Origin: Dastarcus helophoroides
Taxonomy: Eukaryota; Arthropoda; Insecta; Coleoptera; Bothrideridae
DNA: 64,000 bases
NCBI GenBank assembly: GCA_028583605.1
Contig: CM053326.1
Location: 50,094,159-50,158,158, forward strand
Direction: 5' to 3'
Below, in pieces: positions 4,013 to 59,644 of the stretch (within the stretch, counting starts at the first letter, position 1; every line of letters starts with the position of its first letter). The translations under genes were made by a program, and so were the position numbers. The notes under the pieces were generated by a model. That model was not told the DNA's origin. It did no database searches and saw only the letters and a program-made list of their open reading frames with translations.

Positions 4013-4718
4013 ATGGTAATATATGGTATTTATATAGTGTCTAAATCCGGGGGCCTAATATTTAATCTTGATCACAATGTTCCAAGAATCGAGTATGAAA
4101 AAACATTTTCTTATCCATTAGATCTAAAATTGCGATACGAAAATAAAAAAGTAATCGTTGATTATGGTCAAAGAGATGGAATTTGTGGTAAACTAAGTAT
4201 TGTTGTTTAGATTACATATATACCCATAATTTATTTTAGTTGGCCACATGCTTTATGCTGTGAACGGAATACCAGTGACTGGGAAACAAACGGATGATGG
4301 TAGAGACGTCTTCGAAATCTTAGAAAATAAAGACAACTTTCCAATAAATCTAAAATTTGGCAGGTCAAAAATGACAACAAATGAGAAAATATTTTTGGCC
4401 AGCATGTTTTATCCATTATTCGCTATTGCCAGTCAACTTAGTCCTGAACCAAAAAGCTCCGGTATCGAAATTCTAGAAGCAGACACTTTTAAACTAAACT
4501 GTTTTCAAACATTAACTGGAGTTAAAATCATGGCTGTATCTGACAGAAATCAATCTGGAGTTGAGCTGTTACTAAAAAAGATATATGAATTATATGCGGA
4601 CTATGCTTTAAAAAATCCATTTTATTCATTAGAAATGCCAATTCGTTGTGAACTGTTTGATTCTAATTTGAAAGTATTGCTTGAGCAAATTGAAAAAACT
4701 GGCGTTATAAATATATAA
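4013..4718 (+). CDS. TRAPPC4: TRAPPC4 (TRAPP complex subunit 4 / Trs23) homologue
   Basis: Exon 1 is 4013-4187, the 52-bp GT..AG intron is 4188-4239, and exon 2 is 4240-4718 (stop TAA). The 654 nt give 217 aa, against 219 in human. The junction rebuilds [14 protein letters not shown], matching the family's QRDGI..GH..LAINGM stretch. Other conserved blocks are [10 protein letters not shown] near residue 29, SNEK-like [34 protein letters not shown]-like [14 protein letters not shown] and [19 protein letters not shown] at the C-terminus. This is a sybindin/longin-fold subunit of TRAPP, the tethering complex and Rab1 exchange factor acting in ER-to-Golgi traffic. The ATG is the first in frame and begins [17 protein letters not shown] like the orthologues. 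It is intact and looks functional. Confidence 0.96.
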
Positions 4719-13073: not shown

Positions 13074-13488
13074 ATCTTAATAAATGCTGATCCCTTAAGG
13101 GGCCCATGAACCCCAGTTTAAGAAATCCTGCCTTAACAGTTGCATTGTTATTTCATAAATAATTTCGCGATTTATTGCCAAATACATTCGCAATATATTC
13201 GCATAATTTCTTACGAATGCGAATATTAAAAAACATGCGAATATTTGCGAATGCAAATGCGAACATTCGTTACATCACTAGTATCATGTATCATCTTAAT
13301 AATGATTTGGTATGTAAGTAGAATGCAACCTAGACTACAAATTCATGCAACCCTCCAGGCGGCGTGTATAGTGGCGAATCATAGGTAGCTGAATTACCAA
13401 CAGTTGAAACACTGCCACCTAGCGAAGCGGTTGCTCTCTAGGAAAGTTCCCAGAAGACAAGGATTCTAATGCACAGACCAATAGGTTT

Positions 13489-13588
13489 GAACATTTATTA
13501 GATTCGAAGTTTGGAAACCAAAGATAGGTTTCGATCTTGTTAGATCTCGTCAGTTTGGTATATCCGACTCGAATGCTAATAAATGTTC
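13489..13588 (-). ncRNA. hammerhead ribozyme candidate (type I), slightly degraded stem III
   Basis: On the minus strand: a long stem I arm, ACCAAA, CTGACGA, GATCT-AACA-AGATC, GAAA, CCTATC, TTTGGT, then the return stem I arm to GAACATTTATTAG's complement. Core and stem II are intact. The stem III palindrome ACCGGT has become ACCTAT. Confidence 0.6.
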
Positions 13589-13624
13589 CGACAAGTCTGT
13601 GAATTCTTTAGTACTTACTTGTCG

Positions 13625-13724
13625 GAACATTTATTAGCATTCGAGTTGGATATACCAAACTGACGAGATCTAACAAGATCGAAACCGGTCTTTGGTTCCC
13701 AAACTTCAAATCTAATAAATGTTC
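13625..13724 (+). ncRNA. hammerhead ribozyme candidate (type I), intact core
   Basis: The outer stem I arm GAACATTTATTAG (13625-13637) pairs perfectly with CTAATAAATGTTC (13712-13724). The inner stem I is ACCAAA (13654-13659) with TTTGGT (13691-13696), separated by internal loops. Between them are CTGACGA (13660-13666), stem II GATCT/AGATC with loop AACA (13667-13680), GAAA (13681-13684), and CCGGTC. The predicted cleavage is after the GUC ending at 13690. The G10.1-C11.1 pair and CUGANGA/GAAA cores fit the hammerhead consensus. Stem III (ACC/GGU) has no loop, so activity would need dimer pairing or breathing. Confidence 0.75.
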
Positions 13725-13752
13725 AAATCTATTGGTCTGTGCATTAGAATGG

Positions 13753-19590: not shown

Positions 19591-19749
19591 TAAAATAGTA
19601 ATATCCGATCTAAACGTAATTATACCTTTCGAAGATTAGACATTGATAAATTGTTTGCTGCATATGTCTCTTATCACAGATGCTTCCTAATTTAAAATAA
19701 ACTATAGATTACGATTCGAAGCGAATTTCGATTTAAATCTTAATATATA

Positions 19750-20830
19750 AATGGAAAAGTTTTTGTCTGTCCCTTTGTCGCTGACAGATCTCTTCAGGTC
19801 GTCGTCGATGATATCTCATCCGAGACATTTGCGATTAAGGCAGGGGTGCCTCAGAGGTCAGTTCTGTCTCCTACTCTATTTCTGTTACACATAAACGATC
19901 TCTTAGCTTCAGCTTTCAATGCTATATGCAGCTACGCAGATGATAGTAACCTTGTGTCATCTTTTTTCTTCGACAATCCATTATCTATCGCTGCTTCAGA
20001 TCGACTAAGGAAACAGCAAATACAGACGATTAATCGGGATCTCGAGATTATTCTGGAATGGGGTAAGAACAATTTGGTCGACTTCAACGCTTCAAAAACT
20101 CAGACCGCGGTTTTTTCTAGGTTAACATTAAGGGATAATGCAACAAACATACCAATGGACGGTAAAATCCTTCCGATGGGATTCAATCTATCTATCCTAG
20201 GAGTGAATGCGAGAACTGACTTCTCTTGGGACGATCATGTGCGAACCATTGCCAAATTCGTCTCTCAGAAGCCAGGCTTTCTTTTTAGAGGTAAAATGTA
20301 CTTCACATCTCGTCAGCTATTAACACTATACAAAGCTCAAGTTAGGCCAACACTAGCCAATACTGTTCTCATGTTTGGAGTTCAGCCCCAAACTCACTTT
20401 AACTCCCTTGGATTCAATTCAAAGAGCGATTCGCTTAATTGATGACGAGAGTCTGACTGATTCTCTCGAAACACGAGCACAGGCGTATGGTTGGTGACTT
20501 GTCTCTTTTCTTCAAGTACTATCATGGAAGATGCTCGCAGGAACTAATAGGATTGAACCCCCAAGGGCAAGATTCTTGAGGCGTATTAGATAGTCGAAGT
20601 CCAAATTCCTGTGCGGTCCACTTGATACAGTAGGAGTACTGTCTACGGGGAGGCTTTTTTCTATAGAAGTACCAAGCTACGGAATGCGTTACCGAAAGGA
20701 ATTTTCCCCAAAAATTACAATCTATCCTTGTTTAAGAAGGCGGTTCATCGCCATCTATCCTTGTTTCTGCATCCTACTCGCAGTGCTTTGAAAACATAAT
20801 GGGGTTACCCTTTGCGAGTGGATTAAACTT
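19750..20830 (+). mobile_element. 5'-truncated non-LTR retrotransposon (LINE), degenerate
   Basis: This is the 3' part of a Jockey/CR1-type LINE. The first open piece (to 20442) encodes reverse transcriptase blocks GVPQRSVLSPTLFLLHINDLL-like and the catalytic-box region YADDSNL, then thumb-like WGKNNLVDFNASKTQ and LGVNARTDFSWDDHV. After 20442 the frame shifts but related coding continues (AIRLIDDESLTDSLETRAQ) up to about 20800, followed by an A-rich tail. The usual G in VPQGSVL is R here. The element is inactive. Confidence 0.85.
19846..20442 (+). pseudogene. reverse transcriptase domain fragment of the LINE
   Basis: 198 codons are open. The YADD box sits near residue 30 of the piece, with RT palm and thumb homology downstream. 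Endonuclease, RT fingers and the C-terminus are missing or shifted. There is no host function. Confidence 0.8.
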
Positions 20831-22402: not shown

Positions 22403-22993
22403 GTAAGTATCTGGCAGCATTTGTAATAATATAAAAAAATATTGTGATTAATTGTAAAAAATTGGTAACAGTTATTGGGCTGGCAAGAAAGTAATTTAGT
22501 TTTTTTCACATACACAACGTTATTTAAATTTTTTTGAATGAATTCTGTGGATGATGTTTTTTAAGTTTTGAAATTTGATATCAAACAGATCGAGGTTCAT
22601 TTTTGAAGCGCGTGGTGAGAGATTTTACTTGTAGCTGATAGTTGTGGGTCAATTTTAACATGGAGTGCAAAAACGAACATTTTTGGCATATTTTACTTTT
22701 TTATTTCCGCCAAAGACGGAAAGCTGCAAAAGCTCATAAAGAAATATGTGAAGTTTATGGTGAAGATTGTATAACAGAACGCACTTGTCAGAATTGGTTT
22801 AAAAAATTCCGTTCTGGAGATTTTTCACTCAAAGATGATCAACGTTTTGGTCGACCTACTAAAGTTGATAACAATTAAATTAATGTCATTATTAAAGAGG
22901 ATCATCATATAACTCTTCAAGAGATTTCAGTGAGATTAAATGTATCACACACAACCATTGAGAATTACTTAAAATGTCTTGGACAATAGTTAA

Positions 22994-23229
22994 CCCTTTC
23001 GCGCCGAAGACCGTATATTCCCGTGTGACAATGTGACAAATAGTCGAAGAGTGTATTTATCCGAATTATATTTTTAATTTAGTACAATATTCTTGTAGAG
23101 ACGTCGATTATCGTACTTTTCCGGTAAATGAATGCTATAACGACAAAGACCATATGATTCCGTAAACCTCGAAAACTGCCCGCCTTATGGGCATACTTAA
23201 AAATAGGAAAATAGCACGTCGCGAAAGGG
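22994..23229. mobile_element. piggyBac-type MITE in the mariner
   Basis: 236 bp with ends CCCTTTCGCG..CGCGAAAGGG inside TTAA duplications (22990-22993 and 23230-23233), the target site used by piggyBac transposases. It interrupts the mariner reading at LGQ/VKNLD. Confidence 0.85.
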
Positions 23230-23281
23230 TTAAAAACCTCGATATTTGGGTTCCGCATAAACTGAGGGATATTCGATCGAC

Positions 23282-23316
23282 GACGAGATCTAACAAGATC
23301 GAAACCGGTATTTGGT
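23282..23316 (+). ncRNA. 5'-truncated hammerhead core at the left end of the retrozyme-like element
   Basis: The CGACGA remnant, GATCT-AACA-AGATC, GAAACCGGTA and TTTGGT are present. The upstream stem I arm and CTGA are lost at the insertion boundary. Confidence 0.6.
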
Positions 23317-23631
23317 TTCCAAACTTCGAATCTAATAAATGTTCAAACCTATTGGTCTGTGCATTAGAATCCTTGTCTTCGGGGAACTTTTTCCTAGAGA
23401 GCAACCGCTTCACTAGCTGGCAGTGTTTCAACTGTTGGTAGTTCAGCTACCTATGATTCGCCACTATACACGCCGCCTGGAGGGCTGCATGAATTTTTGT
23501 AGTCTAGGTTGCATTCTACTTGCATACGACATTGTTGGCGGTGGCCTTAGTTTCTCTATGGACCAAAGGTGACGGTAGTACTAAGAAATTACACGCTTGA
23601 CGTCCGTGAATTCTTTAGTACTTACTTATCG

Positions 23632-23731
23632 GAACATTTGTTAGCATTCGAGTTCGATATACCAAACTGACGAGATCTAACAAGATCGAAACCGGTATTT
23701 GGTTTCCAAACTTCGAATCTAATAAATGTTC
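23632..23731 (+). ncRNA. hammerhead ribozyme candidate (type I), intact core
   Basis: Stem I outer arm GAACATTTGTTAG (23632-) pairs with CTAATAAATGTTC ending 23731. Inner stem ACCAAA/TTTGGT (23661-23666, 23698-23703). Core CTGACGA 23667-23673, stem II GATCT/AGATC 23674-23687, GAAA 23688-23691, CCGGTA to 23697. The cleavage triplet is GUA here instead of GUC (both fit NUH). It is on the sense strand of ETS intron 1, so it would be present in the pre-mRNA. Confidence 0.75.
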
Positions 23732-24730
23732 AAACCTATTGGTCTGTGTATTAGAATCCTTGTCTTTTGGGAACTTTTTCTAGGAGAGCAACCGCTTCGC
23801 TAGGTGGCAGTGTTTCAAGTGTTTCAACTCTTGGTAGTTCAGCTACCTACGATTCCCCACTATACACGCCGCATGGAGGGCTGCATGAATTTGTAGTCTA
23901 GGTTGCATTCTACTTGCATATGAAAGATATTCATTTGACACAACGAATCAATATTTGCGATACATATCTTGAAAATGATCCCTTCTTGAAAAGAATCATT
24001 ACTGGTGATGAAAAATGGATCACCTACATTAACATCATTCGAAAACGATCATGGTCCAAGCATGATGAACCAACACAAACCACATCAAAAACTGAGTTGC
24101 ATCAAAATAAAAAGATCATGTTGTCGATTTGATGGGATGGTGTTGTGTACTTTGAGTCGTTTCGAAGGAACCAGACAATCAATTGGTATGTGTACTGCCA
24201 ACAGATAATAAAACTGGATGAAGCAATCAAAGAAAAAAGGCCAGAATTAGCAAATCGGAAAGGAATTCAGATGTATACTGCCAACAGATAATGAAATTGG
24301 TTAAAGCAATTAGAAAAAAGGCCAGAATTGGCAAATCGGAAAGGAATTGTGTTCTACCATGACAATGCCAAGCCTCACACATCTTTGTCAACTCGTGGGA
24401 AATTATTGGAGCTTGGTTGGGAAGTGATGTCGCATCCCCATACAGCCCTGACGTAGCACCTTCTATTACCATTTATTTCGCAGTTTGCAGAACTCTATGA
24501 ATGGCAAAAATGTTCCCAAATGATGATGACCTTAAATTGCACTTAGTTCAGTTTTTTCTGAGAAGGATCAGAAATTCTATGAGCTGCAACAAAGCATGAA
24601 ACTGCAACAAAGATGGCAAAAGGTCATTAAACAAAATGGAAAAATGTAATTGATTAAAACAGCTTGGTATTAAAAAAAAATGTGTTTTTTTATACGACAA
24701 AACCGAAATTACTTTCTTGGCAACCCAATA

Positions 24731-29916: not shown

Positions 29917-30005
29917 ATTCTAATACACAAATCAATAGGTTTGAACATTTATCAAAGTTTGGGAACCAAAAATCGGTTTCGACCTTGTTAGATGTCAGTC
30001 AATTT
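29917..30005 (-). mobile_element. degraded retrozyme-like fragment
   Basis: CAATAGGTTTGAACATTTAT and GGTTTCGACCTTGTTAGATG identify a minus-orientation copy whose hammerhead core is mutated and whose ends are missing. Confidence 0.55.
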
Positions 30006-38723: not shown

Positions 38724-39046
38724 TTTTTGGTGGAACGGACTAGTCCTTGGGTATCTTCAAAAATTGAAATACAGAATTTGTTCCCTGAAACCAAGAAAGA
38801 TTAAAAAATACAACAAGGGTTGCTCTAACGAGTTTTGACATCCAAGCTATCATTTTCAGAGAGATACATAGCAGTATATCTCTGAAGGTAATGCTTGGCT
38901 GTCGAAAAGCGTTAGAGCAGCCTTTGTTGTCTTTTTTAATCTTTCTTGGTTTCAGGGAACAAGTTTTGTATTTCAGTTTTTCAGGAAATGTGATTCCTAC
39001 ATTAATTTTTGAAGATAACCAAGGGCCAGTCCATTCTACCAAAAAA
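38724..39046. mobile_element. FB1 copy with an internal insertion
   Basis: Complete left arm. The right arm is interrupted by 25 bp (CAGGAAATGTGATTCCTACA) before TTTTTGAAGATAACCAAGGG and the terminus. A further right-arm scrap lies at 38672-38722. Confidence 0.8.
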
Positions 39047-39445: not shown

Positions 39446-39950
39446 GTATGGTTAATAAGATAATAAACATTTCATATGTTGTGTGGATAGTTCCTTGTTT
39501 TGTATTATTTAACAATTTTTAGAAGTTTTAATGCACTTTTTTTCTAAAGTAAGATTATGGTTTTATGAAATTATCGAATTAAATTTTTAATCCATATTTT
39601 TTGTTGTTAATAAAATTAATAATTCTTTGATCATACTCAGTGTTAATAAACTTGATTGAATCTTGTTCCCTTTTTTAGTGTTCATTTCAATCATTTTCAC
39701 CATTATTATAAAGCGAATTTTGAGCGAATAATTTTATGCTTCCCCAATTAGGAATATTTCGCTTACAATATAGTATAGGATGGGGTGGGAAAGCTGCACT
39801 CAAATAAAATCAATTTAATGTGTTTTCTTGCAACTAATTATATTTGTCCAAGGCTTTGCCTTGGAAGATGAAGGCCTTTTACCTTGATTTTTTGAATGCC
39901 TTCAATGTGATGAATATTGTAACTGACAAACTATATAATGTAGATTCTGA
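39446..39950. other. intronic spacer
   Basis: AT-rich. No exon or element recognised. Confidence 0.35.
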
Positions 39951-39952
39951 TT

Positions 39953-40240
39953 CACAGGCCAATAGGTGTGAACATTTATTAGATTCAAAGTTTGGAAACC
40001 AAAGACCGGTTTCGATCTTCTTAGATCTCGTCAGTTTCCAAACTTCGAATCTAATAAATGTTCAAACCTATTGGTCTGTTCATTAGAATCCTTGTCTTCT
40101 GGGAATTTTCCTAGAGAGCAACCGCTTCGCTAAGTGGCAGTGTTTCAACTGTTGGTAGTTCAGCTACCTATGATTCAGAATACACGCCACCTGGAGGGCT
40201 GCATGAATATGTAGTCTAGGTTGCATTCTACTTGCATATA
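39953..40240. mobile_element. retrozyme-like repeat with inverted junction
   Basis: A minus-orientation piece (39953-40034) joins a plus-orientation piece (to CTAGGTTGCATTCTACTTGC at 40240). A hammerhead core is retained at the junction. Confidence 0.7.
39971..40058 (-). ncRNA. hammerhead candidate with rebuilt stem I
   Basis: Minus strand: CTGACGA, GATCT-AAG-AAGATC region, GAAA, CCGGTC, TTTGGT. The upstream stem arm has been replaced by a copy of the complementary arm, so the outer stem is still nearly perfect but the inner ACCAAA is gone (GGAAA instead). Confidence 0.5.
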
Positions 40241-44884: not shown

Positions 44885-45540
44885 AATCAATAGGTACTAA
44901 ATTTCTTCTCATTGGACATTTATCTTATATTGGACAAATTGGGATGCTCGACTTCGGTAATGACTTAAGCAAGAAAATAAAATAAATATTGAGCTTTTTG
45001 ACTTTTCCTCCAAAATCGTCCATTTTTCGAAATTTCGAATTTTCTGAAAGTTCTAAGTTTCTTCTCATATAACATTTGTCTTATATTGGACAAAATGGAA
45101 TGCTCGTTTTAAAATGACTGCCAAGAAAATAAAATAAATATTGAGCTTTTTGGCTTTTTCTCAAGTGACCTATTTTTCGAAATTTCTAATTTTCTGAAGG
45201 TTCGAAGTTTCCTCTCATTTGACATTTCTCTTACATTGGATAAATTGGGATGCTTGATTTGACTTGAGCAACAGAAAAAATAAAATTTTGAGCTTTTTGA
45301 CTTTTTCTCAAAAGTCACCCATTTTTCGAAATTTCGAATTTTCTGAGGTTCTAAGTTCCTTCTCATTTGACATTTATCTTAAATTGGACAAATTGGGATG
45401 CTTGTTTTACACAATGATTTAGGCAAGAAAATAAAATAAATATTGAGCTTTTTGACTTTTTCTCAAAAATCACCCATTTTTCAAAATTTCGAATTTCCTT
45501 AAAATTTCGATCTTTTGTCATTATTATTTTAAAATCAGTC
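44885..45540. repeat. inverted 154-bp array, about four copies
   Basis: Reverse complement of the 41.5-42.3 kb array: TTCTTCTCATTGGACATTTA, TTATATTGGACAAATTGGGA and AAAATAAATATTGAGC recur about every 155 bp. Confidence 0.85.
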
Positions 45541-48450
45541 TATTTTGAAATGTTCAAAAATCCGATCCTTCTTGGTTTTTTTCTCGAAATTCGACTTTTT
45601 TTTGGAAACTTTCATTTCATTTCATCATCAATTCATTTCATTTTATCATCATTATAATTTCATTATGTTTTCAAAATCAGTCTATTTTGAAATGTTCAAA
45701 AATCCGATCCTCCTTGGTTTTTTTCTCGAAATTCGACTTTTTTTGGAAACTTTCATTTCATTTCATCATCAATTCATTTCATTTCATCATCGTTATAATT
45801 TCATTATCATTTCACAATCAGTCTATTTGGAAATGTTCAAAAATCCGATCCTTCTTGGTTTTGCTCTCGAAATTCGACTTTTTTTGGAAACTTTTATTTC
45901 ATTTCATCATCATTTCATTTCATTTTATCATCATTATAATTTCATTATCTTTTCAAAATCAGTCTATTTTGAAATGTTCAAAAATTCGATCCTCCTTGGT
46001 TTTTTCTCGAAATTCGACTTTTTTTGGAAACTTTTATTTCATTTCATCATCATTTCATTTCATTTTATCATCATTATAATTTCATTATCATTTCACAATC
46101 AGTCTATTTTGAAATGTTCAAAAATCCGATCCTCCTTGGTTTTGTTCTCGAAATTCGACTTTTTTTGGAAGCTTTTATTTCATTTCATCATCATTATTTC
46201 ATTTCATTTTATCATAATTATATTTTCATTATCTTTTCAAAATCAGTCTATTTTGAAATGTTCAAAAATCCGATCCTTCTTGGTTTTTTTCTCGAAATTC
46301 GACTTTTTTTTGGAAACTTTCATTTCATTTCATCATCAATTCATTTCATTTCATCATCGTTATAATTTCATTATCATTTCACAATCAGTCTATTTTGAAA
46401 TATTCAAAAATCCAATCCTCATTGGTTTTGTTCTCGAAATTCGACTTTTTTTGGAAACTTTTATTTCATTTCATCATCATTTCATTTCATTTTATCATCA
46501 TTATAATTTCATTATGTTTTCAAAATCAATCTATTTTGAAATGTTCAAAATTCCGATCCTCCTTGGTTTTTTTCTCGAAATTCGACTTTTTTTGGAAACT
46601 TTCATTTCATTGCATCATCAATTCATTTCATTTCATCATCGTCATAATTTCATTATCATTTCACAATCAGTCTATTTTGAAATGTTCAAAAATCCGATCC
46701 TCCTTGGTTTTGTTCTCGAAATTCGACTTTTTTTGGAAACTTTTATTTCATTTCATCATCATTTCATTTCATTTTATCATCATTATAATTTCATTATCTT
46801 TTCAAAATCAGTCTATCTTGAAATGTTCAAAAATCCGATCCTCCTTGGTTTTTTTCTCGAAATTCGACTTTTTTTGGAAACTTTCATTTCATTGCATCAT
46901 CAATTCATTTCATTTCATCATCGTTATAATTTCATTATCATTTCACAATCAGTCTATTTGGAAATGTTCAAAAATCCGATCCTTCTTGGTTTTGCTCTCG
47001 AAATTCGACTTTTTTTGGAAACTTTTATTTCATTTCATCATCATTTCATTTCATTTTATCATCATTATAATTTCATTATGTTTTCAAAATCAATCTATTT
47101 TGAAATGTTCAAAATTCCGATCCTCCTTGGTTTTTTTCTCGAAATTCGACTTTTTTTGGAAACTTTCATTTCATTTCATCATCAATTCATTTCATTTCAT
47201 CATCGTTATAATTTCATTATCATTTCACAATCAGTCTATTTTGAAATGTTCAAAAATCCAATCCTCCTTGGTTTTGTTCTCGAAATTCGACTTTTTTTGG
47301 AAACTTTTATTTCATTTCATCATCATTTCATTTCATTTTATCATCATTATAATTTCATTATCTTTTTAAAATCAGTCGATTTTGAAATGTTCAAAAATCC
47401 GATCCTCCTTGGTTTTGTTCTCGAAATTCGACTTTTTTTGGAAACTTTTATTTCATTTCATCATCATTTCATTTCATTTTATCATCATTATAATTTCATT
47501 ATCTTTTCAAAATCAGTCTATTTTGAAATGTTCAAAAATCCGATCCTCCTTGGTTTTTTTCTCGAAATTCGACTTTTTTTGGAAACTTTCATTTCATTTC
47601 ATCATCGATTCATTTCATTTCATCATCGTTATAATTTCATTATCATTTCACAATCAGTCTATTTTGAAATGTTCAAAAATCCGATCCTCCTTGGTTTTGC
47701 TCTCGAAATTCGACTTTTTTTGGAAACTTTTATTTCATTTCATCATCATTTCATTTCATTTTATCATCATTATAATTTCATTATCTTTTCAAAATCAGTT
47801 TATTTTAAAATGTTCAAAAATCCGATCTTCCTTGATTTTTTTCTCGAAATTCGACTTTTTTTGGAAACTTTCATTTCATATCATCATCAATTCATTTCAT
47901 TTCATCATCGTTATAATTTCATTATCATTTCACAATCAGTCTATTTTGAAATGTTCAAAAATCCGATCCTCCTTGGTTTTGCTCTCGAAATTCGACTTTT
48001 TTTGGAAACTTTTATTTCATTTCATCATCATTTCATTTCATTTTATCATCATTATAATTTCATTATCTTTTCAAAATCAGTCTATTTTGAAATGTTCAAA
48101 AATCCGATCCTCCTTGGTTTTTTTCTCGAAATTCGACTTTTTTTGGAAACTTTCATTTCATTTCATCATCAATTCATTTCATTTCATCATCATCATCATT
48201 TCAAAATCAGTCTATTTTGAAATGTTTAAAAGTCTGATCCTCCTTGGTTTTTTTCTCGAAATTCGACTTTTTTTTGAAAACTATCATTTCATTTCATCAT
48301 CATTTCATTTCATTTCATCATCATTTCATTTCATTTCATCATCATTATAATTTCATTATCATTTCAAGATCAATCTATTTTGAAATGTTCAAAAATCCGA
48401 TCCTTTATGTAATGCTGGAAAATTTAACTTTTTTCTCGAAATTCGTCTTT
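45541..48450. repeat. 141-bp minisatellite in dimeric higher-order arrangement, about 20 units
   Basis: AAATGTTCAAAAATCCGATC recurs every 141-142 bp. Two unit types alternate. Type A has CTTTCATTTCATTTCATCAT, CAATTCATTTC, GTTATAATTTC and a TTCACAATCAG end. Type B has CTTTTATTTCATTTCATC, CATTTCATTTCATTTTATCA and a TTTTCAAAATCAG end. The true period is therefore about 283 bp. Because 141 is 47 codons and the unit has no stop in two frames, frames of 891, 324 and 322 codons run through it. Confidence 0.95.
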
Positions 48451-50085: not shown

Positions 50086-50095
50086 GTTTTCTCTA

Positions 50096-50350
50096 ATGCA
50101 GAGACCAATAGGTTTGAACATTTAATGAATTCGAAGTTTGGAAACCAAAGACTAAACTTCGAATCTAATAAATGTTCAAACCTATTGGTCTGTGCATTAG
50201 AATCCTTGTCTTCTGTTAACTTTTCTAGAGGGCAACCGCTTCGCTAGGTGGCAGTGTTTCAACTGTTGGTAGTTCTTTAGTTCAGCTATCTATGATTGAC
50301 TATACACGCCTGGAGGGCTGCATGAATTTGCAGTGTTCTACTTGCAATGG
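50096..50350. mobile_element. retrozyme-like repeat, hammerhead core deleted
   Basis: The stem arm GAACATTTAATGAATTCGAA meets its inverse at 50155 with the core missing, then continues to GGAGGGCTGCATGAATTTG. The rest of the unit is recognisable. Confidence 0.65.
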
Positions 50351-50670
50351 GTTTTCTTCTGAAAATTTCGATTTAGAATCTGAATTTCCAGAAATATGGA
50401 CTGGCTTCTTAAATTATTAGAGCACTGAACTAAACACTGTGGCTTATGATGTGCATAGAAGGTTTTACCCCTTAACCAAAACGGCAATTAAACAAATAAT
50501 TACGCGATACGTACGCTTGTAAACGCTAGTTCTGTTAGCGAAATACGTATTACGTAATTATTTGCTTAATTGCCAAGAATTGACATATTCGAATTGAAAT
50601 ATTCGAATAAAATGAAATAAAAAAAGACGAATTTTGAAAACAATTAAATTTTGACAAAAGGACGACATAA

Positions 50671-50907
50671 TTTTGATGGAACGGACTTGTCCTTGGTTAT
50701 CTTCAAAAATTGAAATACAAATCTTGTCCCCTGAAACCAAGAAAGATTAAAAAACACAACAAAGGTTGCTCTAACGCGTTTCAACAGCCAAGCTATCATC
50801 TTCAGAAAAAGGTTAGAGCAACCTTTGTTGTGTTTTTTAATCTTTTTTGGTTTCAGGGGACAAGATTTGTATTTCAGTTTTTGAAGGACCAGTCCGTTCC
50901 ACCAAAA
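50671..50907. mobile_element. FB1 copy
   Basis: Complete ends (TTTTGATGGAACGGAC and CCAGTCCGTTCCACCAAAA). The hairpin loop is deleted (CATCTTCAGAAAAAGGTTAG). Confidence 0.85.
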
Positions 50908-52369
50908 AAAAAAGTTTAATTGCCGTTGTGATAAAGGGGTAAAATCTTCTATGGACTTCTGGGTTCTTAAAGTTTAGCCTTTTCCCGAAATTTTGTTTTT
51001 TTTTAAATCCCGATACTTTTAAGAAAACGAGAACGCATTTTGGGAAAAATTAGAAACGTGCAGAAATATAATTTTGAACTCATTGCTTCAGTCATGCATG
51101 TTTCTTTTCCATATAGACTGATTTTTTCAATTTTCATCACAACTTCGTGATATTTGATAGTTAATTGATCTTTGTTTATATTAATTATTGACAGCTTTCG
51201 CAAATATTAGTAATCAGGAGTGTCCACTGTTCGGCACATGTTCTTGTGGAATTCTCCAGAAGAGAGAAATCTCTCTACCTGCCTTTCCTTCTCCCATCAG
51301 AGGGTGCCAGCCTGCCTGGTCAACCCTCGACATTTTATACCAATATATACATTCAAAAGGAGACCGTGAATAAAACCACATTTAAAAGCAAGAAACAAGC
51401 TTATCATTTTTCTGGTCCTTCGAGTACGATCAAGTCAAAATATATCGAACATCCACTATCAATTAGTTGCAACGTTGCCGTTTCAAAATAGATAAATTGT
51501 CTTATTTTGGGTTACGACTAATTCATTTAATGATTTTTTTTTATATTGATGTTGGTATTAAGCTCGATGTTTTTTTTTAATTCTTTTGCTCCTATATTAT
51601 TTTTTAAATCGTAGATTAAACAAGTTTTTAGGTTTTTCTTAATTTATATTTATAATTACAATATAAATAAACGATATTTTCTTGCAAACAGTTAGTTGTA
51701 TCAAAAAAATGTAAAAGACCAAACTTTTAGATATTTTAATGACCGACTAAATGATGTTATATGAATTCCAAATTTCTTGGTAAAAATATACAATTTCTAC
51801 TAAAAAATGTAAAGACTTCCCTCTATCACCCCTAAAGTTAGGTTTAACTTTTTTTTGAAATGAAAAATGAATATAGCGTCTAAAAAACCAGCTTCTTGCT
51901 AATTTTCAAAATATTTGATCGATAACTGTAGTCACAATTCGACATAATCGAATTTTCTTGCGCAACTTTTGATAGCAGCAGCCCGAAGAGCTGCATCTTA
52001 GGACATGTTTATAAAAAAAAATTATTTTAACCCCAAAAATACGCTTTTAAAATATATGCATCGAATTTCGAATCAGCCTGTAAAAAACGCGTGGTGGTGA
52101 CGCTAAACCATAAGTTTACCCCCTATCAAAAGTCGCCCAACGCGTCTAAGGAAAATTTCAGTTCAAAAAACCGGAGCGTCACTAAAACTACTGTAATTTG
52201 TAAACGAATGCTCAGATTGTTATGAAATTTTGACGCGTAATGTTTGAAAGTTGATTATTTTTAAAAATAATTCATTTATTTATCAATTATAAAAAAATTA
52301 GGCGGCCTGGGAACTGTTGTTAGAAGTGAAAACTCCTTAAATGTGGTTAAAATTCCTGTTCTTGTCAAC
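50908..52369. other. intronic spacer with one doubtful exon
   Basis: Ordinary AT-rich sequence. 51195-51362 is open in the phase needed for the ETS gene after an acceptor TATTGACAG, but its donor is weak and would replace Asp of DPYQ by His. See findings. 52085-52175 resembles 52580-52660. Confidence 0.35.
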
Positions 52370-57316: not shown

Positions 57317-57830
57317 TTAACTAAGCACCACTCCCAGTACATATTGAAATCGTTATTAAAATTCCTTTTTAACAATACAAAAACAGGCTGCTCTAGATCG
57401 TATATCACCAAAATGCTTAACTATATTTTAATGACGAAAACATTCTGCTTCAACGCGCAGGATTGTTGATAAAAAAAGGGTCACATAACTAAATGATTTT
57501 ATTGAAATATTTAATTTCCAATACGATTATTTCGATTATGAGTGATATTCCATATTTCAAAATGTCTAAGAAATGAGAAGTCAACAACTCGACGCAATTG
57601 CGCACTTCTACTGAGAGCGATCATTATTTCTCCAACGTACGCAATGAAACGTCAAAATTCTGTGAGATGTAGTTTCAGATTGCGATTGGGCAAAAACGGT
57701 ATCGCTAAAAATTCTCATATTTTAGTATTTTATTCACAGGATCATATAATATATTACTTTTCTTATTAAAAGCTTGTCCACGAAAAATTAAAATATCTTT
57801 AGGAACATTCTTCGTCGATACTTTTCATAT
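57317..57830 (+). other. probable 3' UTR of the ETS gene
   Basis: No coding. ATTAAA occurs at 57765-57770, and a canonical AATAAA only at 58850-58855 beyond the retrozyme-like repeat, so the 3' end may be either. Confidence 0.4.
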
Positions 57831-57992
57831 GCAAGTAGAATACGACCTAGACTGCAAATTCATGCAGCCCTCCAAGCATGTAAAGTGGGTAGTTGATCTA
57901 TCAACAGTTGAAACGCTGCTTCTTAGCAAAGCGGTTGCTCTCTAGGAAAGTTCCCAGAAGAAAAGAATTCTAATGCACAGACCAATAGGTTT

Positions 57993-58092
57993 GAACATTT
58001 ATTGGATTCGAAGTTTGGAAACCTAAGACCGGTCTCGATTTTGTTAGATCTCGTCAGTTTGGTATACCCAACTCAAATGCTAACAAATGTTC
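57993..58092 (-). ncRNA. hammerhead relic with mutated core
   Basis: Minus strand: ACCAAA, CTGACGA, GATCT-AACA-AAATC, GAGA (should be GAAA), CCGGTC, TTAGGT. The long outer stem I is kept. Confidence 0.5.
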
Positions 58093-58193
58093 CGACAAGT
58101 ACTAAAGAATTCACGAACGTCAAGCATGTGACTCTCATTGTCAGTGCTACCGCCACCTATTGATCCATATATCAAGTTAGAACTTATTTGTTA

Positions 58194-58293
58194 GAACATT
58201 TGTTAGCATTCGAGTTGGATATACCAAACTAACGAGATCTAACAAGATCGAAACCAGTCTTTGGTTTCCAAACTTCGAAGCTAATAAATGTTC
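58194..58293 (+). ncRNA. hammerhead relic, G5 mutated
   Basis: ACCAAA, CTAACGA (G5 to A), GATCT-AACA-AGATC, GAAA, CCAGTC, TTTGGT, outer arms intact. G5 is essential in hammerheads, so this should be inactive. Confidence 0.55.
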
Positions 58294-58320
58294 AAACCTA
58301 TTGGTATGTGTATTAGTATA

Positions 58321-59644
58321 CTTTACATGTTAAAAATCGTAACTTTGATGTTGAATTTTTTAGCTTTGGCACCATCAAGGGTCTTTTAAAATTACAGGTG
58401 GATAGGTAACACTACTGGAAACACCTGACACGCAAAATCTATAGAAAAGGTGACCGGTGAAGTACCTTAATTAGAATTTACACAAAATATGGTGAAGCAT
58501 TTTAGTTATACTTTGCATATGAAATTGTTTTTGTATTTTCAACTCACAATTATTTAAACTATATTAGTTAAGTATTTTGAGAAACTTTCCTATTTTGGAG
58601 TTTGATCAATGAATTAATTGTATGTCTTATTTTTAAGATGTTAAAAAAATATTTTTCGATTGCTTTAAAAGTAACTTTTTCTTGCGTTTCGCTAAAAATA
58701 TTTTTTAATTGTTATCTAAAAAAAATGCTGCATTCTTTGCTTTAAATATTTCTATAACTTAAAATCACAATGTTCCTTGTTTTGTTTTTTAGAATTAAGA
58801 ATTTGTGACATTTTAAACAATGCAATTGTATTTAGTTAATGTTATTGTTAATAAAAGTTTTTAAACTTACTTCTTTAGTTAATATCAACGTGTTTACAAG
58901 TAATTATCATCTGAGTGGAATAAGACAATTCCAAACTTCCAGAAAGGTAACGATTGAATTTTGAGATACAAATCAAAATTTCGAAAATAAGGCGTATTTT
59001 GAGAAACAGGTTGAAATTTCGGAAAGTCAAAATCACGAGAAAAAGGTTGAAATTTCCAGAAAATATTCAAAACTTCCAAAACGTAATACAATTTTTAGAA
59101 GAACAATTAAAATTTTGGGTACGAAATCGTAATTGAGAAAAAGACGAATTGTGAGAAAACCCAATTTTGAGAAACGATCGGAATTTTCAGAAAATAAAAT
59201 TTAAAGTAAAAGGTAGTTTCCGGTAAAAACCTAATCTTGTAAACTCGAAGAATATCGAAATTTTGAAAAAAGGTTATCATTTTCAAAGATGGCATTTTGT
59301 GAAAATTAAAAGTAAAAAGTCGAATTTTGGGAAAAGAAAAACGCAATTTTCAAAAATATTCTTCTCGAAATCGTAATATTTTTATTTAATATTTGAATAT
59401 TTAAATTTCGCTAAAGAAGTTGATTTAAGAAGTATGTTTCTGAAATTTATTAAATATAATTTTCTCGACTTATTTTTTAGCACTCAGTTCTAATTTGGAG
59501 AAAATAAACTAATTTGGCAAAGTCAAATTTTCAGGGAAAGCCAATTTCATGGAAAAATTTGACATTTCTAGAAACAGAAAACGCCACATTTTGAGATAAA
59601 AGTCAAAATTTGAAAGTGAGGCGAAATTTAAGAAACAAGTTACA
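58321..59644. other. spacer grading into filler
   Basis: AT-rich sequence, then from 58950 purine-rich TTTCGAAA filler. No gene. Confidence 0.4.

Follow-up and report, generated by a model that had tools for sequence, protein, structure and literature searches.

A retrozyme family in the beetle Dastarcus helophoroides whose insertions resemble those of Penelope-like elements

The window analysed here is a stretch of 64,000 nucleotides of the Dastarcus helophoroides genome (GCA_028583605.1, contig CM053326.1, positions 50,094,159 to 50,158,158 of the forward strand). On its forward strand, at 22663–24660 (right limit approximate), lies a decayed mariner element, recognised by its sequence, by an HTH_48 domain (E 2.3e-23) and by a partial DDE domain (E 6.6e-4; 20 bits, under its cut-off of 24), the two domains being located upstream and downstream, respectively, of a 651-bp forward-strand insertion at 23275–23925, hereafter copy B. 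An earlier note on this DNA had described an insertion splitting a mariner and made of 1.7 direct units of 387 bp. Both statements are borne out, as the sequence GATATTC is present on both flanks (23268–23274 and 23926–23932) with mariner domains on either side, and the direct repeats are spaced 387 bp apart and match at 94% over 155 nt (89–91% over the whole overlap). Specifically, copy B consists of seven bases following the left target site duplication (TSD; 23275–23281), a truncated first hammerhead corresponding to unit positions 359–387 (23282–23310), one full unit extending from predicted cleavage site to predicted cleavage site (23311–23697) and a second, partial unit (23698–23923) stopping at unit position 219, all on the forward strand. 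The unit has a GC content of 42.5%, hence below 50%, and the open frames overlapping 23275–23925 are at most 103 codons from stop to stop, too short for a reverse transcriptase (RT) plus a GIY-YIG domain. The same mariner carries a second, MITE-like insertion at 22990–23233, which begins and finishes with TTAA and has inverted ends TTAACCCTTTCGCGCCG / CGTCGCGAAAGGGTTAA (17 nt, 94%) placed 210 nt apart.

The complete hammerhead of copy B, with a long helix I, maps to 23632–23731 on the forward strand; its core occupies 23667–23697 and cleavage is predicted after 23697. All the parts listed by the earlier note are present, namely CTGACGA at 23667–23673, the GATCT/AGATC stem II, GAAA and a GTA triplet ending at 23697. 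The note had also counted two hammerhead cores 387 bp apart: the second is indeed complete, but the first is a fragment cut inside the core, showing ACGACGA in place of CTGACGA and devoid of the 5' strand of helix I. The elements follow one another in the order CTGACGA core, 5-bp stem II with an AACA loop, GAA, ACCGGU, H17 and helix I. In this arrangement, ACCGGU can pair as a helix III made of a single A-U pair closed by a palindromic CCGG tetraloop, and helix I (ACCAAA/UUUGGU) continues outward through about 22 more pairs and an internal loop. Allowing up to three mismatches, the core pattern matches the window seven times; 100 shuffled sequences averaged 0.01 matches. When the Rfam models were run, a check that the earlier note had proposed for 23275–23925, Hammerhead_HH9 matches emerged, but below the gathering score; at gathering scores no model matches anywhere in the window, the best value being 36.6 bits against 52. 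The HH9 (RF02275) match at 23649–23720 reaches 35.2 bits (E 4.6e-7 for 801 bases, 3.7e-5 for the window), and with E-values up to 1 this model marks six places in the window, all six falling within copies of the same repeat.

From the fetched loci we collected 113 hammerhead modules that are unbroken across the predicted cleavage site, 82 of which keep all tested invariant positions. Nowhere does the module vary more than at H17 (0.41), which is A in 67 modules, C in 45, T in one and G in none, and every base observed conforms to the NUH rule. The A and C classes may reflect two co-existing subfamilies, one with GUA and the other with GUC triplets. Variability is higher at the CCGG of stem III (0.066) than in the rest of the module (0.039), and slightly lower in the core (0.027). 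Covariation analysis of the 75 modules that were aligned (74 of them distinct) revealed none beyond that of shuffled alignments. Folding computations indicated that the 100-nt hammerhead region folds better than its shuffles (z -5.90), as does the whole 387-bp unit as RNA (ahead of all 100 shuffles, z -5.68), and that in a free single strand an alternative fold is favoured over the hammerhead by about 9 kcal/mol. One of the two axolotl hammerheads is described as having a helix III with just one pair and a palindromic tetraloop, like those of other salamanders, and there dimers work much better (PMC7229834). The variability of the CCGG, the lack of covariation and the preference of the free strand for another fold count against such a reading here, although the last fits a need for dimers as well. 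Cleavage by the predicted hammerhead would probably take place in a dimer.

BLAST located six copies of the repeat in the window, among which copy B, with its direct-only layout, does not represent the commonest arrangement. Copies A (13310–13750; TSD with one mismatch), D (39943–40238; 12-bp TSD), E (50092–50349) and F (57823–58323) are inverted pairs, with arms placed head to head, and copy C (29917–30005, reverse strand) is a short truncated copy. Head-to-head inverted pairs therefore account for four of the six window copies, as well as for all three clear copies found, together with one 28-nt piece, in twenty 10-kb stretches evenly spaced at round-number places of the genome rather than randomly drawn. 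Three copies in 200 kb correspond to about 8,000 per genome, with a wide error. The genome searched comprises 539 Mb in 50 contigs; two queries returned 3780 and 5010 first-look candidates, 40 of each being scored, and we examined 27 loci besides copy B from the first and 20 from the second; copy F was among the queries. Exact patterns were not found in viral_contigs and genome_contigs, which cover viruses and prokaryotes. Dimeric or multimeric genome copies with TSDs, which the earlier note had suggested looking for, do exist, and its reading of copy B as a retrozyme, a short tandem element that encodes no protein and carries a type I hammerhead, agrees with the dispersal of the sampled copies and with their TSDs; what it overlooked is the head-to-head inverted layout with its two preferred 3' ends.

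Starting from the tabulated copies, we compared the ends of the arms, all read outward. Arm 3' ends cluster in two places, S, near unit position 60 (bin 50–70), and L, near unit position 217 (bin 200–230), which are offset by about 157 nt: 50 arms end at L, 34 at S and seven elsewhere. Copy B ends at L, copy C at S. Uncut copies in which both outer ends could be typed are mostly head-to-head inverted pairs, and among the 29 uncut inverted copies the script assigned one S and one L end to 25, where about half would be expected if arms chose their ends independently at the observed frequencies. Window copies A and F read L+S and copy D reads S+L. Of the remaining four copies, one is S+S (L046) and three are different: L009 ends at L and at position 131, L042 is irregular, and window copy E was read by the script as S plus 186, becoming S+L if the alignment is followed past a small deletion. 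As the loci retrieved with copy F were chosen by their likeness to an S+L copy, that query favours this class; without them, S+L pairs are 16 of 20 by script, or 17 when copy E is read by eye. The count also includes L051, which shares both flanks with L049, so that the two look like one duplicated insertion; with L051 removed, it becomes 24 of 28. Outside the count stand L053 and L059, in which an arm meets the edge of the locus (L053 looked L+L), L004, a complex copy called direct by the script, and L001, which is copy B itself. Two direct copies, L039 and L044, likewise have both flanks in common.

Retrozyme copies are bordered by TSDs of 7–14 bp, above chance and longer than 4 bp. A TSD score of at least 7 was obtained for 22 of 29 inverted copies, compared with 5.7% of mismatched flank pairs, and for 10 of 27 direct copies, compared with 5.4%; in each set the observed sum was reached by none of 20000 permutations, and in a first set of 15 copies by none of 10000. 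The possibility that an inverted copy is one composite element moved as a whole was rejected, as the 33 junction rows between arms show 32 different pairs of limits, only L051 and L058 being identical. Overlaps of 1–9 bases occur, as a raw count, at 16 of these 33 junctions. Inside the tabulated copies, the BLAST chains contain unit sequence only, bar short gaps, and no LTR-like ends are apparent in the arm table. By BLAST limits, arms whose 5' limit falls on or close to unit position 1 are few (in L002, L032 and window copies D and E), which indicates that arms do not usually end by run-off at the cleavage site. As read from the arm table, many 5' limits seem to crowd at unit positions 200–361, just upstream of the hammerhead. 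In six inverted copies (L009, L032, L033, L049, L051 and L054) the outer flanks carry a common repeat, 84–97% alike over 43–115 bp; the retrozyme thus often lies beside or inside that repeat.

By comparing the arms within and between 27 insertions, we assessed whether the two arms derive from one RNA. Similarity is higher between the opposite arms of an insertion than after re-pairing (0.863 versus 0.837, a difference matched by 1 of 1000 permutations), and yet the mean over all opposite-arm pairs (0.861) is lower than the mean between insertions (0.880), so that a shared template is weakly supported. In addition, the base at H17 is the same in both opposite arms for 20 of 24 pairs, which are not independent of one another, where a fraction of 0.52 would be expected at random. 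All together, these data suggest one shared RNA per insertion. In the 113 modules, picked for being unbroken across the predicted site, the template was uncleaved or religated. Circles may have served as template; nevertheless, H17 is constant within 18 of the 24 same-strand arrays and the other six mix A and C, which speaks against pure monomer circles having been the sole template, and heterogeneous multimers seem to have been used too, unless later conversion mixed the units.

Penelope-like elements (PLEs) co-exist with the retrozyme in this genome. Scoring 150 of 1070 genome candidates gave 91 GIY-YIG matches, and the reference locus of the family examined here, L073, holds in one 416-aa frame both an RVT_1 (E 4e-11) and a GIY-YIG domain (E 4e-6). 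One copy of this family is found in the window itself, at 50416–50958; it has two head-to-head arms, is split by another repeat, ends at positions 4072 and 4036 of reversed L073 and is flanked by a 13-bp TSD with one mismatch. Both arms are also present in L019, L070 and L072, and all four two-armed copies combine a short and a long end, one at 4036–4044 and the other at 4064–4078 of reversed L073. The offset between the two ends is 28–36 nt in these PLE copies, versus about 157 nt in the retrozyme. An inverted arm is lacking in L073 itself, L071 is only distantly related, and the match of L027 is confined to 36 nt. Among five PLE copies, TSDs exceed background in L019 (11 bp) and in the window copy, the other three being at its level. 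A common 3'-end motif of retrozyme and PLE was rejected, as the best candidate, AAACCT near the S end, is equalled in 1250 of 2000 shuffles.

This architecture closely recalls what has been reported for PLEs. Published copies consist of an inverted pseudo-LTR (pLTR) placed head to head with direct pLTRs, with TSDs of 8–10 bp and a 31-bp tail on one inverted pLTR (PMC3846280). How PLEs integrate is described as poorly understood; a purified PLE protein cuts and extends both target strands and begins reverse transcription inside the RNA, at a pair of neighbouring sites corresponding to the tail, and the PAc PLE protein is predicted to be a dimer (PMC11167929). The authors of that account observed no strand difference in start site, a result that alone does not predict the S+L rule. 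The retrozyme shares with PLEs (PMC3846280, PMC11167929) head-to-head arms, direct partial tandems, one longer arm (the tail), a variable TSD and a hammerhead in the repeat, and departs from them in showing no RT/GIY-YIG frame in the copies seen and an end offset of about 157 nt instead of 30–40 nt.

As to the element itself, its type I hammerhead, short low-GC tandem units without protein, multi-copy state and TSDs longer than 4 bp are those of the metazoan non-LTR retrozymes described in PMC7229834, and 387 bp lies within their unit range of about 150–450 bp. Those elements are described there as tandem, whereas here the uncut copies in which both outer ends could be typed are mostly inverted pairs, and two 3' ends are preferred; the invertebrate retrozymes of that account also have a longer helix III, which here is amphibian-like. 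The one-pair helix III with a palindromic tetraloop is shared with the hammerhead repeats of newt and axolotl, which measure 330–350 bp (PMC7229834) against 387 bp in this family. In this case, unlike the salamander repeats, the host is an insect, and the likeness is one of description. Another insect repeat with a hammerhead, pDo500 of Dolichopoda cave crickets, is a satellite family, unlike the retrozyme, and is likewise set beside it by description. Insects are mentioned in general terms among metazoan retrozyme hosts (PMC7229834). Cervera and de la Pena regard PLEs as strong candidate movers of retrozymes, since the two kinds of element have hammerheads and a tandem arrangement in common and are found together (PMC7229834), and a curation guide states that metazoan retrozymes may depend on PLEs for mobility (PMC8969392). 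The link has thus been proposed before; here it is the insertions themselves that carry PLE anatomy, and since the PLEs of this genome carry it too, the question of the mover becomes directly testable. A literature search that took in few subscription papers brought up no description of retrozymes inserted in the inverted, PLE-type manner, which is weak evidence of absence.

Taken as a whole, the data make it probable that this insect family belongs to the metazoan non-LTR retrozymes and that PLE machinery mobilises it in trans through two-sided target-primed reverse transcription. The anatomy, the two favoured 3' ends, their S+L pairing, the TSDs and the like anatomy of PLEs in this genome are read directly from the sequences. 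In the mechanism that we infer, a PLE protein would bind RNA of 387-nt units carrying the type I hammerhead and cut both strands of the target, and both strands would be extended on the retrozyme RNA, one being primed near unit position 60 (S) and the other near unit position 217 (L). The two cDNA arms would then proceed upstream through one or more hammerheads, halting at variable points, and their head-to-head joining would leave a TSD of about 7–14 bp. Where one arm is missing a direct tandem would result, copy B being, under this scheme, an insertion of which only the L arm remains. Hammerhead cleavage and a circular stage, if any, would likewise be part of this mechanism. More tentatively, with a confidence somewhat short of even, we propose that in each insertion a Penelope-type complex copies one retrozyme RNA from both cut strands, each strand being obliged to use a different start, S or L. 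If this were true, the retrozyme would be the SINE of Penelope elements, and in its S+L pairs the genome would preserve a fossil trace of target-primed reverse transcription from two sides. The S+L rule is also of interest for the integration of PLEs themselves. Counting against the PLE reading are the S+S copy L046, the end of L009 at position 131, the irregular L042, the mismatch in offset and the lack of a sequence tie to PLE, as well as the missing inverted arm of L073, the bias of the loci chosen with copy F, the weak support for a shared template and, for the hammerhead, the variable CCGG, a core that is only slightly less variable than the rest, the lack of covariation and the alternative fold of the free strand.

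An unlikely alternative, although the one that fares best, is that the element is an internally deleted PLE, the 387-bp unit being the pseudo-LTR of a PLE without reading frame, which would leave the insertion mechanism unchanged. Its insertion anatomy is as in PLEs, and pLTRs of PLEs can contain hammerheads whose helix III is very weak (PMC7761336). On the other hand, the unit has no significant sequence in common with the one PLE family examined, in which no Rfam hammerhead was found; apart from short gaps, the tabulated copies hold nothing but unit sequence; and the long helix I contrasts with the minimal PLE hammerheads in print. Considerably less probable is a SINE-like element moved by a LINE, with inverted copies arising from L1-style twin priming. 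The variable TSD length and the 5' truncation would suit LINE insertion, and the window does contain an RT fragment at 19744–20439 (RVT_1, E 8e-8), judged by eye to be of LINE type; nevertheless, twin priming leaves the inverted portion with an outer end that varies, and here both outer ends recur, no A-rich tail is seen at copy ends, and ARAGORN found no tRNA-like head in 23200–24000. Finally, a foldback DNA transposon, or a piece of satellite, in which a hammerhead merely happens to lie would account for inverted arms and tandem units and is disfavoured as highly improbable, since TSD length varies, arms stop at different unit positions, nearly every junction has its own limits, direct-only copies also have TSDs and the sampled copies are dispersed.

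Further features of the window deserve mention. Palindromic repeats at 50671–50907 and 38724–39045, the former sitting within the PLE copy at 50416–50958, belong to an abundant type with arms of 82–94 nt and give sub-threshold Rfam microRNA matches. A tandem array at 45518–48339 comprises 20.1 copies of a 141-bp unit (91% matches), and its long open frame is probably just repeat. A TRAPPC4-like frame (Sybindin) lies at 4230–4715, its named best matches being in insects, many of them beetles.
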